64,000 nucleotides of DNA, taken from contig JABYQN010000001.1 in assembly GCA_022606135.1 (NCBI GenBank), positions 1,798,001 to 1,862,000 on the forward strand, given 5' to 3'. The notes under the pieces were generated by a model that saw only the letters and a program-made list of their open reading frames with translations, did not search any database and had not been told where the DNA came from. The translations under genes were made by a program, and so were the position numbers. Positions 38,044 through 38,909 of this stretch are shown one piece after another; the first letter of the stretch is position 1; each line of letters starts with the position of its first letter. This stretch comes from Fomes fomentarius (lineage: Eukaryota; Basidiomycota; Agaricomycetes; Polyporales; Polyporaceae).

Positions 38044-38909
38044 TTGCTTGGTCCCCCCAGCTTCTTCCCAATGTCGTTGCCGCGAAGCTTCACACCGAGG
38101 ACGCGTTCTAGCTTAGCGAGGATCTGCGCGTTCGGGATCGCGCGCCCTGCCTCGTAGTCCTGCAGAATACTCGGCTTCTCGTTAATCTTCTGCGCGACGT
38201 CCTTTTGCGACAGCTGCTTCTCCATCCGTGCGGTTTGTATCGCCTGCGCGCGTGTTGGTCAGCCTGCGCTCCCAGATTTGACAACCGAATGATGACGACG
38301 AAGGTCGGGCGTGTAGAAAGAGTCCACGCATGATACGAGTACTCACCTTGCCAACGGAGGGGTTAATCTTGGGTGGCGGTGCGACCTCGTTCTCGCGGTC
38401 GAGTTTCGCAATCTTCTGGTGGTCAGTCCCTACAGTAATACACCAGCCACGCAGTGAATGGAAGCAACGAACACGTTAGCAACAGCACACTACAGTGACA
38501 GTGACAGTAGCTCGGACAGGCAACATGCTGCACTGCCTGCGGAGTTAGGTGATGATGGATGCCACAAAAGCACGCACCTTGATGGGCCTTGTTGGTTCCC
38601 GCAGTGACCTTCCTGTCCGTCCCGACAACGGCACCTGCCCGACGGGCCTACAAGCAAGCAAAAGCACATATCGCAAAATCGCGAATCACGTCTACATCAG
38701 CCAAATGCTTGCTGCGCGGTGTACACTTGAGATACATACAGCTGCATGACAGATGATAGGTCAGCGAATTTGCTGACACCCGCAAGAAAGCAACATATAG
38801 TGGGCGTGGCGTAGTACGTACCGTTAAGATCGGAGGTGTTACGAGCGACTTTGGGTGCCTTGGCCTTCTGGCCGATGACGAGCTTGGTGTCCCAGTCGGT
38901 GTTGCTCAT
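38037..38909 (-). CDS. MBF1: Multiprotein bridging factor 1 (MBF1)
   Basis: A transcription co-activator bridging TBP and bZIP activators; it also limits frameshifting on collided ribosomes. Proposed exons: 38822-38909, 38740-38741, 38578-38647, 38347-38429, 38037-38243; total 149 residues, the normal family length. The N-terminal domain reads MSNTDWDTKLVIGQKAKAPK, then AARRAGAVVGTDRK and DHQKIAKLDRENEVAPPP. The C-terminal helix-turn-helix of the XRE/Cro type reads KQLSQKDVAQKINEKPSIL, DYEAGRAIPN and LGVKLRGNDIG. Exon 1 ends in phase 1 whereas the ARRAG block needs phase 0. A 2-nt exon (CT, between TGCAG and GTATGT) repairs this and gives the expected AARRAG. The alternative is a single intron with acceptor GGGCAG that drops ARRA. 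Introns here are 80-148 nt, longer than elsewhere in the window. A TTTATATA element sits about 105 bp upstream (39014-39021). Confidence 0.92.

Follow-up and report, generated by a model that had tools for sequence, protein, structure and literature searches.

Ultra-short exons are already known from fungi and plants. A 1-nt exon of Fusarium CYP621A is described with 18 RNA reads from two species (PMC12940212), and 1-nt exons of plant APC11 (PMC4674806) and VPS55 (PMC8831610) are reported as confirmed by RNA-seq and RT-PCR. Very small exons also occur in P450 genes of the white-rot Basidiomycete Phanerochaete chrysosporium, where the shortest given in the accessible part of the report is 6 bp (PMC1184071). 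Here we describe a 2-nt exon, CT, in the MBF1 gene of Fomes fomentarius, which lies within the 64,000-nt stretch of DNA that was analysed (the window) and is very likely real. A first-pass annotation of this DNA had proposed the exon and rightly counted it among the smallest known, though exons of 1 nt, one of them fungal, have been published.

The MBF1 exon resembles that of Fusarium CYP621A, as far as the latter is described in the accessible text. Both are ultra-short fungal exons flanked by introns, are demanded by the phases of their neighbors and complete a codon within a conserved motif. The Fusarium exon is common to orthologues, and for that of MBF1 protein models strongly indicate as much. 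The two differ in that the Fusarium exon measures 1 nt and belongs to an Ascomycete P450 of unknown function, whereas the MBF1 exon measures 2 nt, lies in a highly conserved Basidiomycete gene and is predicted from sequence. The plant cases are likewise conserved exons of less than 3 nt that reference annotations and read mappers are said to overlook, but they are 1-nt plant exons, and the RNA-seq and RT-PCR confirmation is theirs. Ascomycete stwintrons resemble this locus in that a single stretch is spliced in two successive reactions, as is presumed for MBF1. In a stwintron, however, as described in the accessible literature, the internal intron interrupts one of the splice signals belonging to the external intron, whereas in MBF1 the signals of both introns are intact and two bases of coding sequence would remain between them.

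The accessible portions of the open-licence PMC literature on 2-nt exons, MBF1, and fungal or basidiomycete microexons held no report of a 2-nt MBF1 exon. Some of the fungal papers that mention microexons mean by it only a read-mapper option, and other papers use the wording in another sense. The 2-nt exon of MBF1 appears to be new, and it is notable for the gene in which it lies, for how old it seems to be and for how widely it is misannotated.

Gene layout and identity of the product

MBF1 is encoded on the minus strand, from an ATG at 38909 to a TAG stop ending at 38037. Exon 1 (38822..38909, 88 nt) ends in phase 1 with AACG, followed by the donor GTACGT. The next conserved block, the ARRAGAVVGTDRK exon (exon 3; 38578..38647, 70 nt), follows the acceptor TTGTAG and starts in phase 0 with GCC CGT CGG, encoding ARR. 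The two are separated by a gap of 174 nt and are out of frame with one another unless an internal exon is used. Within the gap stands TGCAG-CT-GTATGT, a canonical acceptor and a canonical donor around two bases (38740..38741), well below the 15-nt upper bound for an ultra-short internal microexon. CT completes the codon GCT (Ala30), which begins with the final G of exon 1. Intron 1 (38742..38821, 80 nt) then runs from GTACGT to ATGCAG and contains a branch-like CTGAC, the A of which is 20 nt away from the 3' end, whereas intron 2 (38648..38739, 92 nt) runs from GTATGT to TTGTAG with a branch-like CTGAT whose A lies 50 nt from the 3' end. The remainder of the gene, on the same strand, comprises intron 3 (38430..38577, 148 nt, GTGCGT to CTGTAG), exon 4 (38347..38429, 83 nt), intron 4 (38244..38346, 103 nt, GTGAGT to GCGCAG) and exon 5 (38037..38243), which encodes the HTH domain and ends with the TAG stop.

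With CT included, the coding sequence is 450 nt long and encodes 149 residues containing the block NAARRAG. When CT is skipped, the frame shifts and a stop is reached after 54 residues, before the HTH domain. The exon is thus needed both for the reading frame and for the conserved NAARR motif. The splice sites with their phases, the 174-nt gap and the TGCAG-CT-GTATGT string had all been listed in the first-pass annotation, and each is present on the minus strand; its intron lengths of 80 and 92 nt and its 450-nt coding sequence are borne out by the coordinates and the translation. No model other than that with CT was found to combine an open frame, canonical splice sites and NAARRAG, and the gene model of that annotation is supported.

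The product is an MBF1/EDF1 protein, with matches to PF08523 (MBF1 domain, 93 bits) and PF01381 (HTH, 48.2 bits). It matches the Mbf1 of structure 9f9s (E 4.6e-43), and its NAARRAG aligns with NAARRQG of yeast Mbf1 in solved structures. Proteins of Dichomitus squalens (Polyporales) are nearest among the matches listed, with 93% identity. When the 40.9-Mb assembly was searched with the protein, the four matches returned proved to be the four larger exons of this very gene, and PF08523 gave one, the only MBF1 match returned. According to the accessible text of PMC7486125, MBF1/EDF1 works at collided ribosomes, and the yeast and human proteins have an N-terminal helix, ahead of a KKY/KKW motif, that is located on the ribosome at the base of rRNA helix 16. 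Ala30 lies towards the N terminus and, by our own residue count, would belong to the helix-16 region.

The exon 1/exon 3 joint in homologous proteins

Three protein searches gave 1479, 1246 and 1419 hits, of which the best 120 each were listed, and all 221 distinct proteins among these were examined. Of these, 124 have an NCBI record and count as genome-annotated, most of them being encoded on long contigs. The other 97 come solely from jgi, lgn or ena, and their contigs do not exceed 3,444 nt. As these short contigs carry full-length, uninterrupted open frames, the 97 proteins most likely derive from metatranscriptome cDNA, and we refer to them as cDNA-like. A further sign of such an origin is that seven of the 97 exceed 160 residues, four of these beginning with UTR-like extensions.

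The two groups differ sharply at the joint. Among the 124 listed genome models, 62 are of NAARR type (a class that also admits NAALR and NAARK), 27 read NGARR, 26 contain insertions, four contain deletions and five have other substitutions. The 97 listed cDNA-like proteins comprise 90 of NAARR type and seven with other substitutions, with no indel and no NGARR. Anomalies, defined as NGARR, an insertion or a deletion, are therefore found in 57 of 124 genome models versus 0 of 97 cDNA-like proteins (Fisher p = 2.9e-18). Exact NAARR is read in 61 genome models (plus one NAALR) and in 86 cDNA-like proteins (plus four with NAARK or NAALR), so that 90 of the 97 presumed cDNA products carry the joint Ala codon as NAA[RL][RK]. 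All five listed NCBI entries that also have a jgi or lgn source read NAARR. The first-pass annotation had called AARRAG typical of the family, had expected annotation pipelines to miss the exon and had proposed comparing this block in cDNAs of other Agaricomycetes; the counts agree with it on each point, the comparison resting on the presumed cDNA set.

Other parts of the protein serve as controls. In the 124 listed genome models, indels number 30 at this joint, two at the exon 3/4 joint and none at the exon 4/5 joint, with a further 14 in the variable linker, five in exon 1 and one in the HTH part. The 97 listed short-contig proteins have none at any of the three joints, 10 in the linker and 14 in exon 1. 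Because the control joints are nearly free of indels in the genome models, the excess is specific to the exon 1/3 joint; the controls were placed by the exon structure of Fomes fomentarius MBF1, with introns 3 and 4 assumed for the relatives. The 62 correct genome models fit either good RNA-guided annotation or intron loss.

The faulty peptides themselves were decoded by a hand-sorted, post hoc analysis in which the splice sites of relatives were deduced from protein models. Nine of the 26 listed insertions start with N-A, and in eight of these nine the next residue is V (p = 3e-9), followed in all eight by C (five), R (two) or S (one), the residues that an NGT codon of a GTNNGT donor calls for (p = 6e-5). 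A model that entered at an exon of two bases (G + CN = Ala) and overran its donor (GTN-NGT) would yield just such a peptide. The eight models (NAVCPL, NAVCIRASF, NAVCA, NAVCPTRLC, NAVCRHNF..., NAVR twice and NAVSYF) back-translate in agreement with AAY G-CN-GTN NGT, and the equivalent overrun in the window would read NAVCISS. They come from Grifola, Trametes cubensis, Dentipellis fragilis, two Amanita, two Lactarius and Galerina, and are partly non-independent owing to the paired Lactarius and Amanita. The decoding suggests that AG-CN-GTNNGT recurs in other mushrooms. The ninth N-A insertion is NAAHLSLA, from Gyrodon.

A second pattern, N-G-x, is seen in 18 listed models (15 insertions, one deletion and two filed as other substitutions). 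Here x is M in six, as would be read from a GTATG donor of exon 1 (p = 3e-7), and 14 fit GTRNG (p = 0.004), the misfits being N, D, Q and L. The 27 NGARR models may likewise have exon 1 extended by the donor GT, perhaps where a CT-bearing transcript was aligned with one mismatch. Two Dichomitus squalens entries are identical except for Ala versus Gly at the joint residue, and the proteins of Trametes cubensis and Cubamyces menziesii differ solely by the insert VCIRASF after Ala30.

Departures of another kind are also seen. Five listed cDNA-like proteins (P0024, P0087, P0138, P0141 and P0144) read NTARR, with Thr for the first Ala; provided that these species retain the microexon, the last base of their exon 1 would be A instead of G. 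The Ceratobasidium models P0216 and P0217 read LYARRAG and LYVQARRAG; the conserved Asn before the joint is changed, which means that their gene structure may differ from that of other Agaricomycetes.

Other splice choices and chance occurrence

The enumeration of single-intron solutions covered GT and GC donors and intron lengths from 35 nt upwards. Only one solution leaves exon 1 whole and adds nothing, namely a 187-nt intron from GTACGT to the in-frame decoy acceptor GGGCAG inside exon 3; the rest delete conserved parts of exon 1 or insert novel peptides. The 187-nt intron would yield a 144-residue MBF1 lacking AARRA. It has a consensus-type GT donor, an AG acceptor and an open frame, and exactly this form, which the first-pass annotation had named as contrary evidence if seen in cDNA, is annotated in two of the 124 listed genome entries (P0048 and P0086), from Ganoderma leucocontextum and Trametes pubescens, and makes up two of the four deletions. 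However, none of the 97 listed cDNA-like homologues lacks AARRA, so that the two annotations look like errors. The form would lose conserved residues that align with yeast Mbf1, and costs 24.5 bits of the Pfam MBF1 score, which is 93 for the CT model versus 68.5 for this one and 74.7 for a model with a single 88-nt intron. A cDNA of the form AACGCTGCCCGT as the main product would be incompatible with it, and we consider this splice choice very unlikely.

Slightly less likely still is an assembly or sequencing error, or a pseudogene, in which two exonic bases were lost from the end of exon 1. Such a loss would also create a two-base frame problem, but the same joint is at fault in 57 listed genome-derived entries from many species. 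Moreover, the gene is otherwise intact and is the only MBF1 match returned in the assembly, and an acceptor-CN-donor arrangement would arise in the gap by chance with P of only about 0.004.

This value comes from first-order Markov simulation at the composition of the gap over its central 94 nt, which gave P = 0.004 for YAG-CN-GTRNGT and P = 0.009 for YAG-NN-GTRNGT. Across both strands of the window, YAG-CN-GTRNGT has a rate of 0.0014 per 174 nt of one strand, its sole match being the MBF1 site itself. These P values are post hoc and suggestive, insufficient by themselves, and the comparative evidence bears the case. The 13-mer TGCAGCTGTATGT has three copies in the 40.9-Mb genome versus four for its reversed control; as it is not enriched, the string itself is ordinary and its position is what is special, and its frequency was rejected as a signal.

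The gap contains two AG-NN-GT sites. When internal exons of at most 40 nt with GT donors and with both introns at least 40 nt long were enumerated, three restored the frame, and CT alone among them provides the family Ala and a consensus donor without an insertion. Another is the 2-nt exon AC (TGTAG-AC-GTGATT), which encodes Asp and has a weak donor and a second intron of 42 nt; it was rejected because NDARR is found in none of the 221 listed homologues. The third is a 17-nt exon, CTGTATGTATCTCAAGT (38725..38741, minus strand), which shares the good acceptor of CT and restores the frame to give NAVCISSARRAG, inserting VCISS. A like overrun is present in the models of eight listed relatives (the AVC-type analogue), yet its donor GTACAC is weak, none of the 97 listed cDNA-like homologues has an insertion at the joint, and one of the overrun models has a counterpart in another genome that matches it but for the insert. 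Its use in place of CT is highly improbable.

Equally improbable is stwintron-like or other non-canonical splicing that also removes the G (AAC-GCC) to give NARRAG, which would keep the frame and has precedent in the nested introns described in fungi, but which requires a GG or GC-type donor, would be incompatible with a cDNA of the form AACGCTGCC and produces a one-residue deletion found in 0 of the 97 listed cDNA-like homologues.

We therefore hold with high confidence that CT is a genuine and probably constitutive exon between GT-AG introns of 80 and 92 nt, apparently old, shared across much of the Agaricomycetes and widely misannotated. Its inclusion in the mRNA of Fomes fomentarius is accordingly expected from frame and homology.

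Taxonomic range, splicing and neighboring genes

Faulty joints occur in seven orders, assigned from one species checked per order: Polyporales (Dichomitus), Cantharellales (Botryobasidium), Jaapiales (Jaapia), Russulales (Lactarius), Agaricales (Galerina), Boletales (Tylopilus) and Thelephorales (Thelephora, a case filed under other substitutions and outside the 57 anomalies). This spread suggests an origin near the base of the Agaricomycetes. Judging from these protein models, the microexon is probably common to much of the class rather than peculiar to Fomes fomentarius, and the arrangement appears old. All five listed entries named Rhizoctonia solani read NAARR, which counts against universality, as does the fact that half of the listed genome models are correct. 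No named hit outside the Agaricomycetes was seen among the matches listed. Where MBF1 DNA of relatives was sought, in viral contigs (13 pattern stretches) and genome contigs (139), no stretch coded for a relative.

With just two bases between them, the flanking splice sites can probably not both be occupied at once, and the introns would therefore most likely be removed sequentially by intron definition. As both introns are short and have complete signals, this is presumably the simplest route. For example, intron 1 could leave first, which would bring AACG-CT beside GTATGT, the donor for intron 2. Since skipping would shift the frame and leave a 54-residue fragment without the HTH domain, a functional ribosome-collision factor should depend on the inclusion of CT.

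The exon might conceivably have been kept since the early Agaricomycetes as a sensitive inclusion step, a built-in poison-skip switch through which splicing fidelity sets the level of MBF1. We regard this as unlikely; if true, MBF1, a collision and stress factor, would be tunable via splicing across mushroom-forming fungi. More generally, a coding exon of 2 nt that lies in so conserved a gene and is apparently present in several mushroom orders would offer many natural replicates in which to ask how the spliceosome treats an exon too small for exon definition, and how such exons arise and persist. With 57 of 124 listed models anomalous, faulty sequences may have entered protein trees and functional studies of MBF1 from mushrooms. 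The Ala-Val-Cys read-through signature could also provide a route to other hidden exons from protein databases alone.

MBF1 is flanked by two recognizable genes. Downstream, on the plus strand, a tubulin-family gene (window 35226-36264) consists of two open pieces, both with PF00091, and we take it to resemble gamma-tubulin. Upstream, on the same strand as MBF1, lies a siroheme biosynthesis gene (window 39359-40186) with PF13241, PF14823 and PF14824, presumably Met8-like.
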